From Stigmatella aurantiaca (lineage in GTDB: Bacteria; Myxococcota; Myxococcia; Myxococcales; Myxococcaceae), in NCBI RefSeq assembly GCF_900109545.1, contig NZ_FOAP01000026.1:1-64000 (forward strand): 64,000 nucleotides of DNA, given 5' to 3'. Position 1 is the first letter of the stretch. Each line of letters opens with the position of its first letter. Positions 8,165-20,427 of this stretch are shown here, piece after piece. A program made the translations under genes and the position numbers. Under the pieces are notes generated by a model that did no database searches, was not told the origin of the DNA, and saw only the letters and a list, made by a program, of their open reading frames with translations.

Positions 8165-11100
8165 ATGTTGGACATTCCCGGCTACAAGGTTCTTGGCACC
8201 ATCCGAGCGACTGGCTCGAATGTGCTCTTCCACGCGGTGCGTGAGGCCGATGGCTTGCCCGTCATCCTCAAGACGCCCATGGCGCCCACGCCAGGTCCCA
8301 GCGAGCGCGAACGCTACCGCCGGGAATTTGGAATCCTGCAGCGGCTCCGGGATGTGCGCGGCGTGGCCAAGCCCTATGCCTGTGAACTCATCCGCGAGCG
8401 GCCGGTGCTCCTGTTGGAGAGGATTCAGGGCGAGCCCTTGTCTGAGTTCGTGGCCCGGCCGCTGGGGGTCCCCCGGTGTCTCGCTGTGGCCGTCTCCCTG
8501 GCCTCGGCCCTGGCGGAGATTCACTGCCGCAATGTCATCCACAAGGACATCAAGCCCTCGAACCTCATCCTCGAACCCTCCGGCGAGGCGCGGCTCATCG
8601 ACTTCGGGGCTGCCACGCTGCAAAAGATCGAGCATCTGGATGCCGCGCCTGCTCACCTGATCGAGGGAACGCTTGCGTACATGTCGCCCGAGCAGACGGG
8701 GCGGATGAACCGGGCGGTGGACTATCGGACGGACTTCTACTCCCTGGGCGTGACGCTCTATGAGCTGCTCACGGGCCAGAGGCCTTTCCAAGGGCGTGAT
8801 GCGCTCGAGTGGTTTCACGCGCACATGGCTCAGATTCCGAGGCCGCTGCACGAGCTCAACCCCAGCGTGCCGCAAGCCCTGACGGCCATTGTGGAGAAGC
8901 TGCTGGCCAAGGTGGCCGAGGAGCGTTACCAAAGCGCCGAGGGCTTGAAGGCTGATCTCGAGCAGTGCCGCGAAGGATTGCTCCAGGACACGTTGGAAGG
9001 ATTCACTCCAGGCGCGCACGATATCCCTCACCAGTTCCAGCTGCCGCAGCGGCTCTATGGGCGGGAAGCGCAGGTCTCCACGCTGATCCAGGGCTTCGAG
9101 CGCGTCATCTCGAGCGGCAAGCCGGAGCTCTTCCTGGTCAGTGGCTACTCCGGCATCGGCAAGTCCTCGGTGGTGCATGAGCTGCACAGGCCGGTGGTGC
9201 AGCGGCGCGGGTTCTTCCTGAGCGGGAAGTTCGATCAGTTCCAACGGGACATTCCCTACGCGACCCTGGCGCAGGCCATCCGGGGGCTGATGCAGCAGCT
9301 CCTGGCGGGAGCGGATGCGGAAGTGGCGAAGTGGCGGGAGCGGCTGAATCAGGCGTGGGAGGGCGATGGCCAGGCGCTCGTGGACTTGGTGCCTCAGCTG
9401 GAGGTGTTGGTGGGCAAGCAGCCACCGCTCCAGGCGCTGCCTCCCAGTGAGACGCAGTACCGCTTCCACCGGGTGATCCGCCAGTTCCTGCAGGTGTTCG
9501 CCACTCCTGAACACCCGCTCGTGATCTTCCTCGATGATTTGCAGTGGGCAGACCTGGCGAGCCTTCAGCTCATCCAACAGGTGTTGTCCCAGCCGGACTT
9601 CCTCACCGTGCAGTGGATTGGCGCCTACCGCGACAACGAGGTGAGCCCCTCTCATCCGCTGACGCTGGTGTTGAATGAGGTGAGCAAGGCCGGTGCACGG
9701 ATCACCCGGATAGGCCTGGAGCCCTTGAGCCTGACACAGGTTGAGCAGCTGATTGGCGATACGCTCCCGGGAGTGAGGCAGGACATGGCCATCCCCCTCT
9801 CTGTCTTGGTTCACGAGAAGACCGGCGGCAACCCGTTCTTCCTCCTCCAGTGGATGGTGACGTTGAACCAAGACGGCCTGCTGGTGCGCGAGCCAGGGGG
9901 GGGCTGGCGGTGGGATGCCGCAAGCGTTCAGGCCAAGGGCTACTCGGACAATGTCGTCGACTTCATGGTGGGCAAGCTGCGCCAGCTGCCTTCCGGGTCG
10001 CAGCACCTGTTGAGGCTGGCGGCGTGCGTGGGCAATGACTTCTCACTCCAGATGCTGGGAACACTGGCGGGCCTGGAGGAGGTGGGAGACGTGGAGCAAG
10101 GGCTCGAGTCCGCGCTCCAGGAAGGCATGCTGACGCGCACGGGGCCGGAGAAGTACCGCTTCCTCCACGACCGCATCCAGCAGGCGGCCCACGCGCTCAT
10201 CTCCCAGGCGGAAGGCAGGTCCGTCCACCTGCGCATCGGCCGGTTGCTGCTGAAGAGCCTGCCACCCGGACAGGTGGGCGAGGCGATCTTCGACGTCGTG
10301 AGCCAGCTCAACGTTGGGGCGGAGCTGATGGATGAGCCTGGGGAGCGCCACCTCGCCGCGCGGCTGAACGCTGAAGCGGGCAGGAAGGCCGCTGCCGCAA
10401 TGGCGCCCCTGCCTGCCATCACCTACCTCACGGCCGCTTTCGCGCTCATTCCAGGCAACCCATGGCAGACGGATTACGGGCTGGCCTTCACAGTGCTTTC
10501 CTCCCGGGCGAAGTGCGAGCTCCAGTGCGGCAATGCCGCCGGGGCGCGCCAACTGGCGGAGGAGCTCCTTTTCCAGGCACGGACACGTGCGGACACCACC
10601 GCCGCCTACTGCCTGAAGAGCACCAGCTGTCTGGTCTCTGGCGAGATTCAGGAGGGGACTGCCTGCATGCTGGAGTGCTTGGCGAAGCTGGGCATGCCCA
10701 TGTCACAGAACCCCGCCTGGAATGAAGTCCTGGAGGCCCACGAGGAGGTATGGACGCTGCTGGGGGAGCGCTCCATCGAGAGCCTCATTGACCTGCCGCC
10801 CATGACGGACCCGGACATGAAGATGGTGATGGATGCGCTCTCCACCGCCTTCACGTCGGCCTACTTCTCCGGCCCCCAATTGCTCATCATCGTCCTGAGC
10901 CGGATGGTCTCCCTCACCTTTCGTCACGGTTTCACGGAAACGGCGATGAGAGGACTGGGTTGGTTCGGGGTGCTGACCGGCTTCATGTTCAAGCGGTACC
11001 AGGAAGGCGCTGCCCTGGGGAGGCTCGCCTATGGCCTCGTCGAGCGGCACAACATGGCCACCTGCCGCGCACAGGTGCTCTCCAGCCTGGAGAACATCAG

Positions 11101-13456
11101 CTACTGGACCCAACCTTTCTCCGCCGTGCAGGAGATCGCCCTCAGTGGGCTCCACCACGCGCTCCAGCTGGGAGACTTTCAGTCCGCGAGTTTTTTCAGC
11201 GTTTCGACCCTGGGGAATCGTCTGGTTTTGGGGCATGCCCTGGCGGACATCCACCAGGAGTCGGTCTCGCGCGGTGAGTTCCTGCACAAGGCCGGGTTTC
11301 AGGATTGCCAGGACATGCTGCTCATCTACCAGCGCTACGTGCAGCAGTTGCGCGGACACTCGCTCTCCTTCGGTACCCTGAGCGGAGAGGGCTTCGATGA
11401 GCAGGCCTTCGAGGCCAGGTTGACCTCCGGGCGCATGCCCCCCCTGCGGTGCATGTACTGGATTGTCAAACTCCAATCGCGCTTCATGTGCGGCTCTTGG
11501 GGCGAAGCACGCGAAGCCGCCGGCCGGGCTGCTGGGCTGCTGGGCTCCATGATGGGCTCCATCCTCATCAAGGATTACCACTTCTTCAGCGCCCTGACCC
11601 TGGCCGCGTGCTTTGACGAGGAAGCCCCCGGGCAGCAGCAGCAGTCCCTCCAGGCCATCCGGAGCCATCACCAGCAGCTCGTGGAGTGGGCGGAGCAGTG
11701 CGCCGAAAACTTCCGCGCGTTGGAGCGGATGGTGGCCGGTGAGCTGGCCCGTCTCGAGGGGAGGGGGGATGAGGCAACGTGTGCTTACGAGGAGGCCATC
11801 TGCGCGGCGAGAGAGCGCGGTGCCATCCACTGTGTGGCGCTGGCCAGCGAGCTGGCGGCAAACTTCTGGCGCACGCGGAAGGCGTCCATCGTCTCTCATG
11901 CGTTCGCGCGCGAGGCCCGGGCGGCGTATCTGCGATGGGGCGCCCGGGGCAAGGTTCAGCACCTGGATGCGCAGTGGCCGCACATCGAGGCGCCGGTGCC
12001 GGCCGACGGCAGCAGTACCAGCAGCACGGAATCAGCCCAGATCGACGCCATCACGGTGGTCAAGACCCAGCAAGCCATCTCGGGTGAGATTGTCCTGGAG
12101 CGGCTGGTGACCACGCTGCTCCAGGCAGCCATCGAGAATGCAGGCGCTCAGCGAGGCGCCCTGTTGCTGCCGGGCGGGGATGCGCTCTCGGTGGCGGCCA
12201 CCTCCAGCGCTTTGCCGGGCAATCCCTTTGCCCCGCCAGGGCAGGACTCGATGCAGGCGTTGCCGTGGACGATCCTCACCTATGTCCGGCGCACCCATGA
12301 GGCGGTGCTCATTGGGGATGCCTCCAAGCCCCACCCGTTCTCGTCTGATGCGTATCTGACGCGCAGCAAGGCGCGCTCGGTGTTGTGCCTGCCGTTGATG
12401 CGCCAGGAGCAATTCTCCGGAGCGCTGTATCTGGAGAACAACCTGGCCACCAACGCCTTCAGTCCCGCGCGTCTGGCGTTGCTCGGACACATTGCCTCGC
12501 AGGCGGCTATCTCCATTGAGAATGCACGGCTCTATGCGGACGTGGAGCGTGCCCGGGCGGAGCTGCGGGAGGCGAACGATGCGCTTGAGCAGCGGGTGAA
12601 CGAACGCACGCGCGAGCTCACGCAGGCTCAGGCCCGGCTGGTGGACACCGCGCGCGCGGTCGGAATGGCCGAGGTGGCCTCCAACGTGCTGCACAACGTG
12701 GGCAACGTGCTCACCAGCGCCGTCATCAACCTGGAGATGATGCAGCACGCGGCCGGCTCCTCACGCATCGGCCGGTTGAAGCAGGCCACCACCCTGCTCC
12801 TGAAGCACCGCGAGGGCTTGGCGGACTTCCTGGCCCCAGGGGCGCGCGGTGGCAAACTGCCGGGCTATCTGGCCGCGCTGGCTGAAGAGCTCATCGGAGA
12901 GCAGACGCGCTTGGTGGAAGACATCGACGCGATGAGCCGGCACATCGCGCACATCCGTGCCATCGTCCATGTGCAGCAGACGTATGCCAGGACGTCGCTG
13001 CTGACGGAGGAGTGCAGCCTGGCCCAGCTCATCGAGGATGCCCTGCGCATCCAGATGGCGGCGCTCAACCGTCACGGGGTGGCCGTCCGGCGCGAGATAG
13101 CTCCGGTCCCCACGCTGAAGGTGGACAAGCACAAGGTGTTGCAGATTCTCATCAACCTCATCAGCAATGCGAAGCACGCGCTGGACGGGGTGCCCGAGGG
13201 AAATCGCAACATGTGTGTGCGGCTGGTGGTGGAGGGCAACCGGGTACGTATTCAAATAGAGGATGATGGCAGGGGCATCACACCGGAGATACGGGAGAAG
13301 CTCTTCACGCACGGCTTCACCACGCGTCATGACGGCCACGGCTTCGGCTTGCACTCGAGCGCGCTGGCGGCGCAGATGCTGGGGGGCCACCTCACGCTGG
13401 AGAGTGAGGGCGCGGGCAAGGGCGCCGTGGCCACGCTTGAGTTTCCGCTCTCTTGA
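8165..13456 (+). CDS. Trifunctional Ser/Thr kinase / AAA ATPase / GAF-histidine kinase
   Basis: 1763 residues with the architecture common in myxobacteria. A protein kinase domain spans about 1-275, with the catalytic loop reading HKDIKPSN (126-133) and DFG at 146-148. An AAA/NACHT-like ATPase begins near 290, with Walker A GYSGIGKSS near 328 and IFLDDLQWAD. A long helical TPR-like region spans about 550-1280. A GAF domain spans about 1300-1460, followed by a coiled coil. The histidine kinase part has HNVGN near 1510 as the likely phospho-acceptor box, then NLISNAKHAL, DDGRGI and GHGFGLH in the ATPase domain. There is no membrane segment, so it is a cytoplasmic sensor. GAGGA lies 9 bases before the ATG. 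No response regulator gene is adjacent, so its partner is unlinked. Confidence 0.93.
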   Translation: MLDIPGYKVLGTIRATGSNVLFHAVREADGLPVILKTPMAPTPGPSERERYRREFGILQRLRDVRGVAKPYACELIRERPVLLLERIQGEPLSEFVARPLGVPRCLAVAVSLASALAEIHCRNVIHKDIKPSNLILEPSGEARLIDFGAATLQKIEHLDAAPAHLIEGTLAYMSPEQTGRMNRAVDYRTDFYSLGVTLYELLTGQRPFQGRDALEWFHAHMAQIPRPLHELNPSVPQALTAIVEKLLAKVAEERYQSAEGLKADLEQCREGLLQDTLEGFTPGAHDIPHQFQLPQRLYGREAQVSTLIQGFERVISSGKPELFLVSGYSGIGKSSVVHELHRPVVQRRGFFLSGKFDQFQRDIPYATLAQAIRGLMQQLLAGADAEVAKWRERLNQAWEGDGQALVDLVPQLEVLVGKQPPLQALPPSETQYRFHRVIRQFLQVFATPEHPLVIFLDDLQWADLASLQLIQQVLSQPDFLTVQWIGAYRDNEVSPSHPLTLVLNEVSKAGARITRIGLEPLSLTQVEQLIGDTLPGVRQDMAIPLSVLVHEKTGGNPFFLLQWMVTLNQDGLLVREPGGGWRWDAASVQAKGYSDNVVDFMVGKLRQLPSGSQHLLRLAACVGNDFSLQMLGTLAGLEEVGDVEQGLESALQEGMLTRTGPEKYRFLHDRIQQAAHALISQAEGRSVHLRIGRLLLKSLPPGQVGEAIFDVVSQLNVGAELMDEPGERHLAARLNAEAGRKAAAAMAPLPAITYLTAAFALIPGNPWQTDYGLAFTVLSSRAKCELQCGNAAGARQLAEELLFQARTRADTTAAYCLKSTSCLVSGEIQEGTACMLECLAKLGMPMSQNPAWNEVLEAHEEVWTLLGERSIESLIDLPPMTDPDMKMVMDALSTAFTSAYFSGPQLLIIVLSRMVSLTFRHGFTETAMRGLGWFGVLTGFMFKRYQEGAALGRLAYGLVERHNMATCRAQVLSSLENISYWTQPFSAVQEIALSGLHHALQLGDFQSASFFSVSTLGNRLVLGHALADIHQESVSRGEFLHKAGFQDCQDMLLIYQRYVQQLRGHSLSFGTLSGEGFDEQAFEARLTSGRMPPLRCMYWIVKLQSRFMCGSWGEAREAAGRAAGLLGSMMGSILIKDYHFFSALTLAACFDEEAPGQQQQSLQAIRSHHQQLVEWAEQCAENFRALERMVAGELARLEGRGDEATCAYEEAICAARERGAIHCVALASELAANFWRTRKASIVSHAFAREARAAYLRWGARGKVQHLDAQWPHIEAPVPADGSSTSSTESAQIDAITVVKTQQAISGEIVLERLVTTLLQAAIENAGAQRGALLLPGGDALSVAATSSALPGNPFAPPGQDSMQALPWTILTYVRRTHEAVLIGDASKPHPFSSDAYLTRSKARSVLCLPLMRQEQFSGALYLENNLATNAFSPARLALLGHIASQAAISIENARLYADVERARAELREANDALEQRVNERTRELTQAQARLVDTARAVGMAEVASNVLHNVGNVLTSAVINLEMMQHAAGSSRIGRLKQATTLLLKHREGLADFLAPGARGGKLPGYLAALAEELIGEQTRLVEDIDAMSRHIAHIRAIVHVQQTYARTSLLTEECSLAQLIEDALRIQMAALNRHGVAVRREIAPVPTLKVDKHKVLQILINLISNAKHALDGVPEGNRNMCVRLVVEGNRVRIQIEDDGRGITPEIREKLFTHGFTTRHDGHGFGLHSSALAAQMLGGHLTLESEGAGKGAVATLEFPLS

Positions 13457-13516: not shown

Positions 13517-13708
13517 CTAAGGAGTCTCCAACGGCGCGATGCGCGCGCGCAGCCGGGCTGCCTCCTGCCGCGTTTTCTCCAGGGCGAGTTGGAGGGCCTT
13601 CTGCTCGCGCGCATGCCGTGCCCGCTGCTGGTCCATCTCGGCCCGGACCTGCTGAAGCTCCTTCTTGACCGCGCCCAGCTTGTCGCGAAGCTCCTGGGCG
13701 TCGCTCAT
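13517..13708 (-). CDS. Small coiled-coil protein (63 residues)
   Basis: Starts MSDAQELRDKLGAVKKELQQ and is charged and heptad-like throughout, so almost wholly a predicted coiled coil. Its ATG overlaps the stop of the upstream gene (ATGA, 13705-13708), strongly suggesting translational coupling. Aligned without gaps, about 24 of 55 residues match the N-terminus of that upstream gene product, so it looks like a duplicated oligomerisation module. The function is unknown; it could hetero-oligomerise with its neighbour. It is the last gene of the alaS-led operon and converges on the large histidine kinase gene. Confidence 0.7.
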   Translation of the reverse strand: MSDAQELRDKLGAVKKELQQVRAEMDQQRARHAREQKALQLALEKTRQEAARLRARIAPLETP

Positions 13709-14703
13709 GGCCACACCCGCTGCTTCACCGCCTGGAAGAGCAGCTCCGCGAAGAGTTCCTGGCCTCGCTCCTCGTGGACCAGGGGCAGGCTGAAGCGGGG
13801 CAGGGCCAGGAGCCGATCGTCCCGGACGGCCTGCGGCGCCCGTTGATGCAGCTCGCCCGTCAGATTGTGCAGGCTCTCGTGCAGGGAGGCTCCCCGGCGT
13901 GCGCCCAGGCCCTGGAACTGGGTGCCCTGGGTGAAGACCACCCGGAGTCCTTCGACGTAGGCCCAGAGGAACTGGCTGTGCTCTTCCTTTTTGACCTCCT
14001 GCACCTTCAGCTCCTGGGCGGAGAAGCCCCTTCGGCCGACCAGGGGCTGGGCTTCTGGAAGGGTCCACTCCAGTTGTTTCTCCACCGAGAGGGTGAGCCG
14101 CCGGCCCCGGACCAGCAGCTTCAGGCTGTCATAGGGCAGTTGCTCGCGCCGGCCCCGGGCATCCTCCAGGTGAAGGGCCTGCGCCTCCAGCGTGAAGCGG
14201 CGCACGGTCATCACCCCTCCGGCGGAAGGGTGGGGGATTTCACGGCTCACCGCCAGGAAGCCCTCGGCGTGGAGCGCCTGGCGCATCGCCTCCGCCTCGG
14301 CAACGGACGCGCGCGCCATGACGCAGGGCAGGGGCATGGCGGCCCGCAGCCGCACATCGGCGGGAGGCAATCCGGTCAGCCGAGACAGGGCGGGCACGGC
14401 CGGCTCCAACGGCTCGGGACGCCGGACGAGCGCGACGAGCACGGAGGGCGGCACCGGCGGGGGCGCTGGGAGGAGCACCGCTTGCTGCAGGGCCTCGGCC
14501 TTCCGCTGCGCTTGGGCTTGCAGGGCTTCTTCGTGACGGCGCTGGAGCGCCGCCACCTCTCGCCGCGCCGCTTCCAGCTCCTGCTGGAGCGCGTCCCGCT
14601 CCCGTTCGTGGTACCTGCGCAGCTTCTCGAGGTGGGCCTTGGAGCGCTGAAGCTCCGCCTGGGCGGCTTCCAACCGGGTGCGCAGCTCACGGGTTCCGCT
14701 CAT
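13705..14703 (-). CDS. Hypothetical protein with N-terminal coiled coil
   Basis: 332 residues. Residues 1-75 form a long charged coiled coil rich in Glu, Arg, Gln and Ala. A Pro-rich hinge (PAPPPVPPS) leads to a globular alpha/beta region of about 240 residues that I do not recognise. There is no signal peptide or membrane helix, so it is probably cytoplasmic. Its start is one base after the stop of the PilZ-Hsp70 gene, and its own stop overlaps the small coiled-coil gene. Operon context suggests work with the Hsp70-like protein, for example as a client adaptor; this is inference only. Confidence 0.75.
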   Translation of the reverse strand: MSGTRELRTRLEAAQAELQRSKAHLEKLRRYHERERDALQQELEAARREVAALQRRHEEALQAQAQRKAEALQQAVLLPAPPPVPPSVLVALVRRPEPLEPAVPALSRLTGLPPADVRLRAAMPLPCVMARASVAEAEAMRQALHAEGFLAVSREIPHPSAGGVMTVRRFTLEAQALHLEDARGRREQLPYDSLKLLVRGRRLTLSVEKQLEWTLPEAQPLVGRRGFSAQELKVQEVKKEEHSQFLWAYVEGLRVVFTQGTQFQGLGARRGASLHESLHNLTGELHQRAPQAVRDDRLLALPRFSLPLVHEERGQELFAELLFQAVKQRVWP

Positions 14704-14704
14704 G

Positions 14705-17077
14705 TCAGCGCTTCCCGAAGAGCTTCTTCAGCCCGGAGAAAAGGCCACTGGGGCGCGCCTCGGGCTCGCTGGGCAGCGGCGAGCGGGCGAAGAGCGCCTC
14801 CTTGCCCGCATCGTCCAGGTCCCCGGAGGCCAGCGGGGCGGGTTGCCGCTTCGCGCCGGGCAGGGTGGTCTCCAGGGAGAGGATGCCGTCCTGGGAGAGC
14901 GAGAAGTGAAACTCCGCCTCTCCCGCGCGCTCGAGCGGGAAGCTGAGCTCTCCCAGGTACTCGTTCTCCAGCGCGAGCAGCGAGGTGCCCTGGAAGAGCG
15001 CCAGGGTCAGCGGCCCGGGCGTGACGGGAAGCACGAGCGTCTTGTCCGCGGGCAGCCGGGTGTTGCGCTCGAAGACCCGGCGGAAGGCGCCGCCCTGGTC
15101 CGCCACGCCCAGGGGAACCGAGAGGACATCCGAGATGGTGGCCCCCGGCTTGCCGGATTCGATCTCCAGCAAGGAGCGCCCCAGCAACGCGGCGCCCTGG
15201 GCGGCGGCGCTCAGCGGGTCCACATCCGCGCGGACCGGCACGCCCAGGCTCTCCTCCAGCCGCCGGCGGACCAGGGGCGCCCGGCTCTGGCCTCCCACGA
15301 GCACCACGGCATCCAGGCCCTGGGGCGTCAGGGCGCTCGACTCCAGCACCTGCCGGGTGACCTCCGTCACGCGGTGCGCGAGGTCCGCGGTGAGCGCTTC
15401 GAGGCGCTCCCGGCTCAGGCTGGCCGTGACGCCGGGCGCCAGCGGAACGGACGTCTCCTCCTGCTCACTGAGGGCCACCTTGGCGGTCTCGGCGGCGGCG
15501 CGCAGGGGGTTCCAGTCGAGCGGGTGCTCGGGCAGGGGCAAGCCCCGGTCGCGCAGCTCCCCGAGCAGGGCCTCCGCGATGCGCGCGTCGAAGTCCATGC
15601 CGCCCAGCGTCGCGTCCCAGCCGGTGGTGACGACCTCCAGGTCATCTCCCGTGACCTGGATGACGGAGACTTCGAGGCCGCCGCCGCCGAGATCCACCAC
15701 GAGGACGCGCTTGCGCGCCAGGCCCCGGCCATGGCCGTAGGCGAGCGTCGCCGCCACGGGGGCATTGAGCATGCGGGGGACGGTCAGCCCCGCGCGCTCG
15801 GCCGCCTCGCGCAGGACCGCGCGCTGCCGGGCATCGAAGTAGGCGGGAACGCACAGCACCGCGCGCGTGACGTCCCGGCCCAGGAACGCGCTGGCGGTGG
15901 CCCTGAGCTCTCCGAGCAGGTGGGCCGCGAACTCGCCCAGGGAGAGGACGCGGCCCTGGAGCTCGACGCTCGCGTCACCGGAGGCATCGGCCGTGAGGGT
16001 CAGGGGCAGCCCCACGAAGCCACGGAGCCGGGGCGAGCTGGCGCGCAGCCCGAGCAGGCGCTTGAGGCCGGTGGCGGCATGGCGGGGGGCCCGGGTGGCC
16101 TCGGCCTGCGCGGCCTCTCCGGCGAGCAGGTGCCCCGCTGCGCTCACCCCCATCATGGAGGGAACCGCCCAGGCTCCGGTGTCCCCCACGGGGATGAGCT
16201 GGGCCTCCCCTTCGTGGAACACCGCGACCCGGGACTGCGCCGTCCCGAGATCAATGCCCAGCACCACCTCGGGTCCGGCAGGGGCGGCCGGAAGGCGATC
16301 GGGCACTTCGAGCACGCTCCGGCGGCGGCTCCGGAATTCGGGTCCCTTGCGAAGGGGCTCGGGCGCAAGAGGCGTGCCGGCGGGAGGTGCTTCCGGTGTG
16401 GGCGCTGAAGGCGGAGGCGCGGGGGCAGGAAGGACTTCGTGGACGGGCGCCTGCGCCGGAGGAGGCGCGGGCGCCTGGAACGGTGCAGGCGTGGGCGCCA
16501 CCGGCCGGAAGGACATCATGGGCTCTGGCGGCGGCGCGGCGGGCGCCGGCAGGGGCACGGGCACCGGCGTGGGCGTGGGGCCGCGGGCCATGGGCGGAGG
16601 TTCGACGGGGGCCGGAGGCCGGGAAACCGCCGCCGGGACCGTGGCCTTGCGGATCAACCCGGGCGGGGGCGCCACAGGGGCCGCTGGAGAAGGCGGCGCC
16701 GGAGCCTGCTGGGGCGGCTCCTCGGCGGGAGCGCTGACCTCGGGCGAAGGGAGGGGCTCACCGTTGCGCCGGGCCACCACCCGGTCCAGCAGGGCCTTGC
16801 TGGGGGCATCCAGCTTCGTGAAGCGCACCGTCATCCCCGAGCGCCCGCCGCCCTCGTCCAGCTGCGCCTTCACGACGATGCCCTCGCCCCGCAGCAGGCG
16901 CGCGCCCCCGGCGAGGACGAACTCAAAGGCCAGCGCGGTGCCCTCTTCCTTGGGTGCCCGGGTGGCGATGAACACCCCACCGCGCGCCACGTTGGCGCCG
17001 TACTTGTCGATGAACTCCTCGTCCGTGGTGTACGGAAGGCGGATGCGCAGCGGGATGAGCTTGGGCGCGACCGTCAC
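14705..17077 (-). CDS. PilZ-like domain fused to an Hsp70 (DnaK-type) protein
   Basis: 790 residues. Residues 1-105 resemble the myxobacterial TIGR02266 PilZ-like family (NVARGGVFI), but the c-di-GMP signature is imperfect: Ala replaces the usual Ser and no clear RxxxR is visible. A Pro/Ala-rich linker of about 150 residues follows. The Hsp70 nucleotide-binding domain starts near 270 (VLGIDLGTAQSRVAVF), with VLVVDLGGGG and VVLVGGQSRAP as phosphate and adenosine motifs. A beta-type substrate domain follows, without the helical lid or the EEVD-like end of DnaK. The C-terminus (LFSGLKKLFGKR) is basic. The start is GTG. The gene is 21 bases after a lipoprotein gene and one base before a coiled-coil gene. 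A specialised chaperone is inferred; the client is unknown. Confidence 0.85.
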   Translation of the reverse strand: MTVAPKLIPLRIRLPYTTDEEFIDKYGANVARGGVFIATRAPKEEGTALAFEFVLAGGARLLRGEGIVVKAQLDEGGGRSGMTVRFTKLDAPSKALLDRVVARRNGEPLPSPEVSAPAEEPPQQAPAPPSPAAPVAPPPGLIRKATVPAAVSRPPAPVEPPPMARGPTPTPVPVPLPAPAAPPPEPMMSFRPVAPTPAPFQAPAPPPAQAPVHEVLPAPAPPPSAPTPEAPPAGTPLAPEPLRKGPEFRSRRRSVLEVPDRLPAAPAGPEVVLGIDLGTAQSRVAVFHEGEAQLIPVGDTGAWAVPSMMGVSAAGHLLAGEAAQAEATRAPRHAATGLKRLLGLRASSPRLRGFVGLPLTLTADASGDASVELQGRVLSLGEFAAHLLGELRATASAFLGRDVTRAVLCVPAYFDARQRAVLREAAERAGLTVPRMLNAPVAATLAYGHGRGLARKRVLVVDLGGGGLEVSVIQVTGDDLEVVTTGWDATLGGMDFDARIAEALLGELRDRGLPLPEHPLDWNPLRAAAETAKVALSEQEETSVPLAPGVTASLSRERLEALTADLAHRVTEVTRQVLESSALTPQGLDAVVLVGGQSRAPLVRRRLEESLGVPVRADVDPLSAAAQGAALLGRSLLEIESGKPGATISDVLSVPLGVADQGGAFRRVFERNTRLPADKTLVLPVTPGPLTLALFQGTSLLALENEYLGELSFPLERAGEAEFHFSLSQDGILSLETTLPGAKRQPAPLASGDLDDAGKEALFARSPLPSEPEARPSGLFSGLKKLFGKR

Positions 17078-17098
17078 CGTTGCCGCCTCACGGAGGGT

Positions 17099-17737
17099 TC
17101 ACTGGAGCGCGAGGCGGACATCTCCGCTGGGGGAGGGAAGCACCAGCGTCAGTCCAGCACCCAGGGCCGAGGGTGGAACTTCGAAAAAGAGGATGACTTC
17201 GGAGCGCTCGTCCGGGCTCCAGGTCCGCTGCAACGGCCGCGTCCCGGCGACGATCTGAACGTCCCGGGCCACGGCGTAAATCTGGCCCGCTGGGTCCACC
17301 AGCTTCACCGGGTCCAGGGACAGGGCGGTGGCCGCGGGCCCCACGTTCTGGGTGATGAGCTGAACGCGAAGGAACAGGTCCTCGGTGGTGAGCGCGACCT
17401 TCCCGGAGCCCTGGACGCCGTGCGAGGCCTCCATGCCCAGGAGCTTCACGGCCACCGAGCCCACGTGCACGGTCTCGTTCGGCTCGGGGGGAAAGAGCTT
17501 CTGCTTCTGGGCGTACTCCTGGCCCGAGGCCAGGCCCGCCAGGGCCGCGTTGGGATCCTCGGGGGCGGACGGCGTTCCCCGAGGCCCGGACGGCGTCCCA
17601 CCGCGCCCCACGCGGTCCACCTCGGCCCGCAGCTTGGAGAGCGTGCGGTCCTCGGAAGGTGGAGCCTCCTCCTTCGGACAGCCCCCCACGAGGGCCGCCG
17701 TCAGGAGGAGCGGGGCGAGGCGGGAGCGCACCCTCAT
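17099..17737 (-). CDS. Putative lipoprotein of unknown function
   Basis: 212 residues. The N-terminal signal (MRVRSRLAPLLLTAALVGGC) ends in a lipobox, so membrane anchoring by lipidation is likely. A Gly/Pro/Ser-rich linker with two similar GTPSGPRGTPSAP-like units leads to a beta-rich domain with NETVHVGSVAVKLLGME and WSPDERSEVILFFEVP, resembling DUF4352-like extracellular beta domains. The ATG overlaps the alaS stop (ATGA, 17734-17737). A longer in-frame extension inside alaS is rejected in favour of this start with its clear signal peptide. Confidence 0.78.
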   Translation of the reverse strand: MRVRSRLAPLLLTAALVGGCPKEEAPPSEDRTLSKLRAEVDRVGRGGTPSGPRGTPSAPEDPNAALAGLASGQEYAQKQKLFPPEPNETVHVGSVAVKLLGMEASHGVQGSGKVALTTEDLFLRVQLITQNVGPAATALSLDPVKLVDPAGQIYAVARDVQIVAGTRPLQRTWSPDERSEVILFFEVPPSALGAGLTLVLPSPSGDVRLALQ

Positions 17738-20427
17738 GCCGCGCCCGGGCCCTTCGTCAGCTCGTAGAGCTTGTCGAGCGCCGCGGGCAGCTTGGACGCA
17801 TCCGGACCGCCGGCCTGCGCCATGTCCGCCTTGCCGCCGCCCTTGCCGCCCACTTCCTTGGCCATCTCGCGCACGAGGTTGCCGGCGCTGAAGCCCTTCT
17901 CCACCACGTCCTTGGTCACGGCCACGAGGATGAGCGCCTTGCCGTCCTTCTCGCCGCCAATGGCCACCACGCCCGAGCGGATCCGGTCCCGGAGCTGGTC
18001 GGCCAGGCCGCGGTAGACCTTGTCGTCGGCCGGGTCCACGCGGATGGCCAGCACCTTCATGCCGTTCACCTCGCGCGCCTGCTCCAGCACGTCCTTGTTG
18101 GACGCCGTCTGGGCCTTGACGGCCACCTCCTCGACCTTGCGCTCCAGCTCCTTCACGCGCTTCTGGGTGGCCTCCACGCGCTTGGACAGCTCCTTGGGGC
18201 TCGTCTTGAGCAGGTCGGCCGCGCGGCGCAGCTCGCGCTCGGTCTCGCGCAGGTACTGGAGCGCGCCCAGGCCCGTCACGGCGGTGATGCGCCGCACGCC
18301 CGAGGCGATGCCGCCCTCGCTGAGAATCTTGAACAGCCCGATGTCGCCGCTGCGCCGCACGTGCGTGCCGCCGCACAGCTCGGTGGACTGCGGGTGCACG
18401 GTGACGACGCGCACCGTCTCGCCGTACTTCTCACCGAACATGGCCACCGCGCCGGACTTCTTCGCCTCGTCCAGCTTCATGATGCGCGTCTGGGCCTCGG
18501 TGTTCTCCCGGACCCACGTGTTGACGATGTCCTCCACCTGCTCGAGCTGCTCGGCGGTGGGCACCGAGAAGTGCGAGAAGTCGAAGCGCAGGAAGTCCGG
18601 GGCCACCACGGAGCCGGCCTGCTTCACGTGGTCGCCCAGCACCATCTTGAGCGCCTTGTGCAAGAGGTGCGTGGCCGAGTGGTTGGCGCGGATGGACTTG
18701 CGCCGCTGGTTGTCCACGCCGGCCTGCACCATCTCGCCCACCTGGAAGGTGCCCTCCTTCACCTGCACGTGGTGGACGATGAGGCCCGGCACGGGGCGCT
18801 GCACGTCCTGCACCTGCGCCACGGCCTTGCCGCCATGGCCGGTGATCTGCCCCGAGTCGCCCTGCTGGCCGCCGGACTCGCCGTAGAACGGGGTGCGGTC
18901 CAGCACCAGCTCCACCGTCTCGCCCGCGGTGGCCTGGCCCACCTCGTGCCCGTCCTTGAGGATGGCGCGCACGGAGCCCTCGCCCTCGTGGCCCTCGCCC
19001 TCGTAGCCGAGGAACTCGGAGGGGCCCAGGCGCTCGGAGAGCGTCTGGTAGATGGAGTTGACCGCCTTGTCGCCGGAGCCGCCGAACTTGTTCTTGTCGG
19101 CCTCCTTCTCCATCTCCTTCCAGAAGCCGTCCAGGTCCGCGTCATAGCCGCGCTCGCGCAGGATGATCTGCGTCAAGTCCCACGGGAAGCCGTAGGTGCC
19201 GTGCAGGTAGAAGACCTCGGCGCCCGAGAGCTTCTTCTCGCCGGACTGGTTGAGCTTGGCGATGCCCTCGTCGATGAGCTTCATGCCGCGGTCGAGCGTG
19301 CGGCGGAACGTCTCCTCCTCGTGGCGGCAGACCTCCAGCACGAACGTGCGGCCCTCGCGCAGCTCGGGGTAGGCGTCGCTCATCAGCTCGATGACGCGGT
19401 CCACGACCTTGAAGAAGAACAGCTCGCTCAGGCCCAGCAGCGAGCCGTGGCGGATGGCCCGGCGCATGATCCGGCGCAGCACGTAGCCGCGGCCCTCGTT
19501 GGAGGGCTGCACGCCGTCGGAGATGAGGAAGGCGGCCGAGCGGCTGTGGTCCGCGATGACGCGCATGGAGGCGCCGCCCTCCTGGGTGTAGGGCTTGCCC
19601 ACCAGCTCGCTCACGCGCGAGAGGATGCCCTGGAACAGGTCCGTGTCGTAGTTGGAGCGCTTGCCCTGGACGACGGAGGCGATGCGCTCCAGCCCCGCGC
19701 CCGTGTCGATGGACGGCTTGGGCAGGGGGATGAGCGGCGCGTCCTTCTCCTTGCGCTCGAACTGCATGAACACCAGGTTCCAGATCTCCAGCCACCGGTC
19801 GCAGTCACACGCCACGCCCTGGCACGGCTTGCCCGCGGCCACCTCGGCGCACGGAATGTCATCGCCCTGGTGGAAGTGGATCTCCGAGCACGGGCCACAC
19901 GGCCCCGTGTCGCCCATGGCCCAGAAGTTGTCCTTGTAGCCGAGCTTCAGGATGCGGTCGCGCGAGACCCCCTGCTTGGCCCACAGCTCGAAGGCCTCCT
20001 CGTCCCAGGGCACGCCCTGCTCGCCGTTGAAGACGGTGACGGCCAGGCGCTCGACGGGCAGCCCCAGCGTCTTGGTCACGAACTCCCAGGCGAAGGCGAT
20101 GGCCTCGGCCTTGAAGTAGTCGCCGAAGGAGAAGTTGCCGAGCATCTCGAAGAACGTATGGTGGCGGGCGGTGTAGCCCACGTTGTCGAGATCGTTGTGC
20201 TTGCCGCCCGCGCGCACGCACTTCTGGGAGGTGGTGGCCCGGGAGGAGTCGCGCTTCTCGCGGCCGGTGAAGACGTCCTTGAACTGCACCATGCCGGCGT
20301 TGGTGAAGAGCAGGGTCGGGTCGTTCTGGGGGACCAGCGGGGAGGAGGCCACCCGGCGGTGGCCGCGCTCCTCGAAGAACTTGAGGAACGCCTCGCGGAT
20401 TTGGGAGGCGGTAAGGGCGGAAGGCAT
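17734..20427 (-). CDS. alaS: Alanine--tRNA ligase
   Basis: 897 residues, close to the usual length of about 875. It charges tRNA-Ala with alanine. The N-terminal catalytic domain starts MPSALTASQIREAFLKFFEE, with motif 1 features HRRVASSPLVP and TNAGMVQFKD. The editing domain has the zinc-type motifs HSATHLLH and CGGTH, and the C-terminal oligomerisation region follows. The frame runs 25 codons further upstream, but the family begins at MPSAL. TATACC lies exactly six bases before the ATG with no obvious Shine-Dalgarno, suggesting a leaderless mRNA. It heads a minus-strand operon with a lipoprotein, a PilZ-Hsp70 and coiled-coil genes. Confidence 0.98.
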   Translation of the reverse strand: MPSALTASQIREAFLKFFEERGHRRVASSPLVPQNDPTLLFTNAGMVQFKDVFTGREKRDSSRATTSQKCVRAGGKHNDLDNVGYTARHHTFFEMLGNFSFGDYFKAEAIAFAWEFVTKTLGLPVERLAVTVFNGEQGVPWDEEAFELWAKQGVSRDRILKLGYKDNFWAMGDTGPCGPCSEIHFHQGDDIPCAEVAAGKPCQGVACDCDRWLEIWNLVFMQFERKEKDAPLIPLPKPSIDTGAGLERIASVVQGKRSNYDTDLFQGILSRVSELVGKPYTQEGGASMRVIADHSRSAAFLISDGVQPSNEGRGYVLRRIMRRAIRHGSLLGLSELFFFKVVDRVIELMSDAYPELREGRTFVLEVCRHEEETFRRTLDRGMKLIDEGIAKLNQSGEKKLSGAEVFYLHGTYGFPWDLTQIILRERGYDADLDGFWKEMEKEADKNKFGGSGDKAVNSIYQTLSERLGPSEFLGYEGEGHEGEGSVRAILKDGHEVGQATAGETVELVLDRTPFYGESGGQQGDSGQITGHGGKAVAQVQDVQRPVPGLIVHHVQVKEGTFQVGEMVQAGVDNQRRKSIRANHSATHLLHKALKMVLGDHVKQAGSVVAPDFLRFDFSHFSVPTAEQLEQVEDIVNTWVRENTEAQTRIMKLDEAKKSGAVAMFGEKYGETVRVVTVHPQSTELCGGTHVRRSGDIGLFKILSEGGIASGVRRITAVTGLGALQYLRETERELRRAADLLKTSPKELSKRVEATQKRVKELERKVEEVAVKAQTASNKDVLEQAREVNGMKVLAIRVDPADDKVYRGLADQLRDRIRSGVVAIGGEKDGKALILVAVTKDVVEKGFSAGNLVREMAKEVGGKGGGKADMAQAGGPDASKLPAALDKLYELTKGPGAA

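Follow-up and report, generated by a model that had tools for sequence, protein, structure and literature searches.

An alaS-linked PilZ-Hsp70 fusion of Myxococcaceae that lacks the helical lid and, in crown genera, canonical ATPase residues

The analyzed window, a 64,000-nucleotide stretch of Stigmatella aurantiaca (contig NZ_FOAP01000026.1, positions 1 to 64,000; source genome G000, 9.37 Mb), carries five open reading frames (ORFs) between positions 13517 and 20427, all on the minus strand and spaced by overlaps or by gaps of at most 21 bases (Table 1). The alanyl-tRNA synthetase gene alaS is followed by genes for a predicted lipoprotein, for a fusion of a PilZ-like domain with an Hsp70, which is the subject of this report, and for two coiled-coil proteins (CC1 and CC2). 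ATGA overlaps join alaS to the lipoprotein gene and CC1 to CC2, while the lipoprotein gene is separated from the fusion gene by 21 bases, and the latter from CC1 by a single base. An initial annotation, made from the sequence alone, had described five genes so arranged, and all of these frames were recovered. A scan for sigma-70 promoters and terminators gave no signal above chance. Convergent to the operon, at 8165-13456 on the plus strand, lies a gene for a 1763-aa hybrid protein; judged by eye, it begins as a serine/threonine kinase, ends as a histidine kinase and includes an ATPase part.

The initial annotation had also proposed that the Hsp70 is joined to the PilZ-like domain through a Pro-rich linker and lacks the helical lid, and both features were borne out. 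The N-terminus matched TIGR02266 with 90.3 bits (cut-off 68.7; E = 7e-26), the Pfam PilZ profile scoring slightly below its own cut-off there, and beyond the linker (residues 105-270) the HSP70 profile matched with 285 bits (E = 1e-84), over its positions 1-454 of 599 only. These matches and an AlphaFold model give the protein the PilZ-DnaK architecture of the CsdK type. In the model, the nucleotide-binding domain is followed by the beta substrate-binding domain up to residue 738 and then by short helices and a tail, with no lid; in addition, A-T-I-S stands in place of the interdomain VLLL linker, so that the protein departs from a full-length Hsp70 in both respects. DnaK and BiP were the nearest solved structures to the Hsp70 part. 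The two Hsp70 domains are shared with Escherichia coli DnaK, at 31% identity over 521 structure-alignment columns, whereas the lost lid and VLLL linker, the substitutions E171A, T199G and D201E, and the extra PilZ-like domain set the window protein apart from it.

Orthologues were collected from relatives by retrieving the sequence that follows alaS, at loci picked to span genera rather than as a random sample. When the cyclic di-GMP (c-di-GMP) motifs were read by eye, the first, RxxxR, was missing in 29 of 29 orthologues, and the second was partly retained as NVARGG. Because RxxxR is missing in every orthologue examined, control of the fusion by c-di-GMP appears unlikely. Total length ranges from 679 to 1711 aa among relatives and varies mostly in the linker: the whole protein has 679-691 aa in most early-branching genera, and 1201-1711 aa in Myxococcus and Corallococcus-type genomes (L088, L089, L090 and L115), in which the linker is several-fold longer. 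At the other end, tail residues L786, F787 and G788 were invariant in 17 orthologues. Several lidless Hsp70s of these genomes, with or without PilZ (L180, L182, L186 and the window protein), have similar short basic-hydrophobic tails at the place of the lid, with examples such as GLKKLFGRR, WLKGLFGRA, FVKKALGRK and SIKSIFRRG.

Table 1. Features of the alaS operon in the window (aa, amino acids; residue substitutions in E. coli DnaK numbering; pLDDT, predicted local distance difference test score)
Feature	Position	Strand	Remarks
alaS, alanyl-tRNA synthetase, 897 aa	17734..20427	-	First gene of the operon; TIGR00344, E = 3.8e-294
Predicted lipoprotein, 212 aa	17099..17737	-	Signal with VGGC lipobox; weak DUF4352 match, 19.4 bits, below cut-off
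PilZ-like/Pro-rich linker/lidless Hsp70 fusion, 790 aa	14705..17077	-	GTG start
TIGR02266 PilZ-like domain, residues 8-104	16766..17056	-	No RxxxR; has NVARGG
Pro/Ala-rich linker, residues 105-270	16268..16765	-	Predicted disordered; pLDDT about 40
Hsp70 nucleotide-binding domain, residues 272-640	15158..16264	-	E171A, T199G, D201E
Beta substrate-binding domain, residues 656-738	14864..15112	-	Helical lid absent
Basic/hydrophobic C-terminal tail (FSGLKKLFGKR)	14708..14743	-	Conserved; short predicted helix, low confidence
CC1, 332 aa	13705..14703	-	Coiled coil plus folded C-terminal region
ClpS/ribosomal L7-L12 C-terminal-domain-like domain of CC1, residues 85-157	14233..14451	-	VIA and Foldseek
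CC2, 63 aa	13517..13708	-	Truncated duplicate of the coiled coil at the N-terminus of CC1

The catalytic residues were compared, in E. coli DnaK numbering, among seven early-branching, 20 crown and two long-branch (genera g11 and g21) orthologues. K70, E171, T199 and D201 are kept in all seven early-branching proteins, whereas every crown protein has lost both E171 (A in 17, N in three) and T199 (G in 19, A in one); position 201 is E, D, Q or G in the crown group, and K70 is kept in 14 of its 20 members. The long-branch orthologues, too, have lost E171, together with K70. The interdomain VLLL linker is replaced by A-T-V/I-S. The T199A substitution markedly lowers the ATPase activity of DnaK, and E171 may hold the attacking water (PMC13012618). 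The window protein, with K70 as the one residue kept of these four, does not carry the residue set of an active ATPase. Most nucleotide contacts survive: D8, K270, S274 and G341 are kept in 20 of 20 crown orthologues, and the window protein has all of the phosphate and adenosine contacts (D8, G10, E267, K270, S274, G341, G342 and R345), so that it is predicted to bind nucleotide. Pairwise ratios of nonsynonymous to synonymous substitution (dN/dS) for the Hsp70 part were 0.12-0.30 in crown pairs versus about 0.10 in canonical pairs; selection on the crown Hsp70 part is therefore, by this estimate, somewhat relaxed yet still purifying.

An intact PilZ-Hsp70 protein is encoded downstream of alaS at 29 of 29 such loci, which represent 15 genera of Myxococcaceae; a thirtieth locus (L116, genus g16) held only a short relative of 499 aa. 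The lipoprotein gene lies between the two in 11 of the 15 genera, the fusion follows alaS directly in g2, g11 and g17, and one other ORF intervenes in g21; lipoprotein homologues occur in 85 of 96 family genomes. A pattern scan of 84,980 species, which detects only sequences retaining the peptide patterns used, found relatives of the alaS-linked fusion only in Myxococcaceae and in bins carrying a related label (one match labelled Comamonas, L143, looks mislabelled). Judged from gene order, alaS, the lipoprotein gene and the fusion are an old, vertically inherited core operon of the family. The gene that usually follows the Hsp70 encodes a secreted protein that matches PagL weakly, and beyond it most relatives carry a glutamate-cysteine-ligase-family gene, a CysZ/EI24 gene and an S41 peptidase gene; in the genome of the window, the ligase-family gene is on a different contig. 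In one early-branching genus, a gene for a large calpain-family protease-domain protein follows the fusion (L092:3041-4807), and genes of similar size stand there in L093, L095 and L098.

The initial annotation had regarded the locus as a candidate for an undescribed kind of system; however, PilZ-DnaK fusions have already been described as CsdK1 and CsdK2 of Myxococcus xanthus (PMC10313047). Three PilZ-Hsp70 fusions each were found in the genome of the window and in two Myxococcus genomes (G062 and G078), and all alaS-linked Hsp70s formed one clade (support 100/99) separate from CsdK1 and CsdK2. Comparison of the sequences indicates that the window's fusion is a third, separate paralogue of the CsdK-type proteins. 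Its identification with CsdK1 or CsdK2 was rejected, as each of these has a separate orthologue in the window's genome (contigs C2 and C5). In M. xanthus AM003 (G078), one fusion stands beside guaA/guaB and a nonribosomal peptide synthetase/polyketide synthase (NRPS/PKS) gene, which fits CsdK1, MXAN_3778, a gene placed beside an NRPS/PKS gene (PMC7910581); the second has RxxxR with R38 at the published position, which fits CsdK2, MXAN_6605; and the third is the alaS-linked gene. CsdK1 resembles the window protein in its TIGR02266/PilZ domain without the first c-di-GMP motif, its lidless Hsp70 and its short basic tail (GFMEWLKGLFGRA), but it adjoins guaB and the NRPS/PKS gene, keeps E171, T199 and D201, is about 39% identical and belongs to a separate clade. 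CsdK2 shares the PilZ domain, the long Pro-rich linker, the Hsp70 and the basic tail, but has a complete RxxxR/NxSxxG c-di-GMP motif (R38) and canonical catalytic residues. Elsewhere in the genome of the window (C16:78315-82958, L008), an Hsp70 gene is directly followed by a response-regulator/PilZ gene, a pair whose position corresponds to that of the adjacent genes MXAN_7025 and MXAN_7024 in M. xanthus; the pairing of a PilZ-family domain with an Hsp70 thus occurs four times in one genome.

By position, MXAN_5804 is very probably the orthologue in M. xanthus of the fusion gene in the window. In G062, which is collinear with M. xanthus, the interval bounded by the equivalents of MXAN_5707 and MXAN_6013 contains a single PilZ/TIGR02266 match, the alaS-linked gene, and interpolation places it at tag 5803.7-5805.3 (leave-one-out errors of nearby anchors, 1-20 kb). 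In the published list of 24 M. xanthus PilZ proteins, MXAN_5804 is the one entry in that interval; its deletion caused no defect in motility, exopolysaccharide or development (PMC8316039). That paper deleted the gene and did not study it further, and its main text mentions neither the alaS operon nor the lost ATPase residues. Counting back from there, we infer MXAN_5802 as a tentative tag for alaS; MrpC binds the region upstream of MXAN_5802 (PMC4320627). Most other Hsp70 genes of M. xanthus are not heat-induced (PMC8265645).

The two distal genes have a different history. CC1 and CC2 stand behind the Hsp70 in four genomes only (G000, G036, G037 and G038), and a close CC1 homologue occurs elsewhere in nine others, being upstream of alaS on the opposite strand in two (G014 and G015) and unlinked in the other seven (G032-G035, G039, G040 and G042). 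Because of this distribution, and because in G037 (L078) the pair is wedged between the Hsp70 and the block of PagL-like, ligase, CysZ and S41 genes, CC1-CC2 is a local, later insertion of the Stigmatella-like subclade. The five-gene operon of the initial annotation is therefore conserved as regards alaS, the lipoprotein gene and the fusion but not as regards CC1 and CC2, whose relatives are scattered at other loci, the outcome that the annotation itself had named as a refutation; nor does conservation make these proteins partners of the chaperone. Both do contain coiled coils, as had been described, but CC1 has a folded region as well and CC2 is a shortened CC1 copy, a truncated duplicate of its N-terminus, because it matches the N-terminus of a second, full-length tandem copy in G040 (61% over 57 residues).

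The CC1 model (pLDDT 86) has a long helix at residues 2-76, a fold at 85-157 and then a beta-rich part. The fold superposed on ClpS (9ayo) with a VIA Z of 11.1 and a root-mean-square deviation of 1.4 A over 71 residues, and nearly as well on the L7/L12 C-terminal domain (Z 9.2). Almost no profile-level sequence similarity links CC1 to either protein, a profile comparison with E. coli ClpS found none, and membership in the ClpS or L7/L12 families is unsupported by sequence; unlike both, the domain of CC1 has a coiled coil before it and another C-terminal region behind it. Many Myxococcaceae, and the window's own genome at another place, encode a distant version of residues ~89-309 as a separate protein of ~268 aa. 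Pfam matches of CC1 and CC2 were coiled-coil noise. A phage or defence origin of CC1 was considered and rejected, there being no phage match and only coiled-coil noise among PADLOC matches.

From sequence, structure prediction and evolution, we infer a set of functional steps to which, taken together, we give a probability of about one half: the fusion would be a client-binding holdase or scaffold without productive ATP cycling, its PilZ-like domain acting as a docking adaptor. In particular, the lidless beta domain would bind client proteins while ATP or ADP is held without productive hydrolysis; the PilZ-like domain, at the end of a long flexible linker, would dock to proteins rather than sense c-di-GMP; and the basic tail may touch the membrane. 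The protein would thus hold or scaffold a small number of clients instead of cycling as a foldase, and its place in the alaS operon would keep expression steady. A client-binding role is supported by the known paralogues, as CsdK1 and CsdK2 stabilise CdbS, and CsdK2 binds this client through its DnaK part and not through its PilZ domain (PMC10313047). More tentatively, and with some doubt, an Hsp70 lineage may have turned pseudo-ATPase, becoming a lidless, non-hydrolysing scaffold, docked through PilZ without c-di-GMP and perhaps tethered by its tail, that was fixed in crown Myxococcaceae; the loss of catalytic residues can be placed on the family tree. Several points weigh against the holdase or scaffold reading. 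Loss of residues does not prove zero ATPase activity; R167, the J-domain contact, has not varied among the crown proteins, so that coupling to a J-protein could in part survive; the hydrophobic moment of the tail is modest (0.17-0.55) and model confidence there is low, which weakens membrane contact; and the only known mutant phenotype, that of MXAN_5804, is negative, the identity of that gene being positional and not taken from an annotated DK1622 record.

That silent deletion, resting on the positional assignment, would also suit a gene in decay, dispensable and kept in synteny with alaS only passively, as would the eroding catalytic residues and interdomain linker and the highly variable length of the Pro-rich linker; we consider this unlikely, since the frame is intact at 29 of 29 loci, the PilZ part and the tail are strongly conserved and dN/dS is well below 1. 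Somewhat less likely again is a nucleotide-exchange or regulatory partner of true DnaKs, comparable to Hsp110/Sse1, which binds ATP, does not need hydrolysis and acts on another Hsp70. Kept ATP contacts beside lost hydrolysis residues are what such a partner would show, and Sse1 (2qxl) was among the structural matches; however, the matches to DnaK and BiP were stronger, the protein has no counterpart of the helical C-terminal region with which Hsp110 forms its complex, and GrpE proteins already occur in the family genomes (PMC10313047). It is quite improbable that the protein is a normal CsdK-type chaperone, cycling ATP in dependence on J-proteins and redundant with CsdK1 and CsdK2: it has the same architecture and keeps R167 and D393/E, and the early-branching orthologues have canonical catalytic residues, but E171 and T199 are lost in all crown orthologues examined, Myxococcus included, and the paper on the partners of CdbS makes no mention of MXAN_5804 in its text. 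The least credible account is that of a dedicated chaperone module with a PilZ-like signal sensor and coiled-coil co-chaperones, tied to translation supply. Genes that overlap or nearly do so, and the L7/L12-ClpS-like fold of CC1, would fit it, yet CC1 and CC2 follow the Hsp70 in so few genomes, and the first half of the c-di-GMP motif is missing. The tie to translation supply, which the initial annotation had put forward, came down to the operon shared with alaS; a functional link of the fusion to alanine charging is not implied, and nothing was found that ties the two.

The usual picture of an Hsp70 is that of a machine driven through cycles by ATP. What is new here is that one orthologous group, at one gene position, holds both canonical Hsp70s in early-branching genera and Hsp70s without catalytic residues in the crown group, so that a possible shift from cycling chaperone to scaffold can be tested by comparing natural orthologues. 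In addition, the CsdK-type PilZ-DnaK proteins, which have a part in the cell death linked to heat stress in Myxococcus, gain a third member, and redundancy with these paralogues is suggested as one possible reason why deletion of MXAN_5804 was silent.

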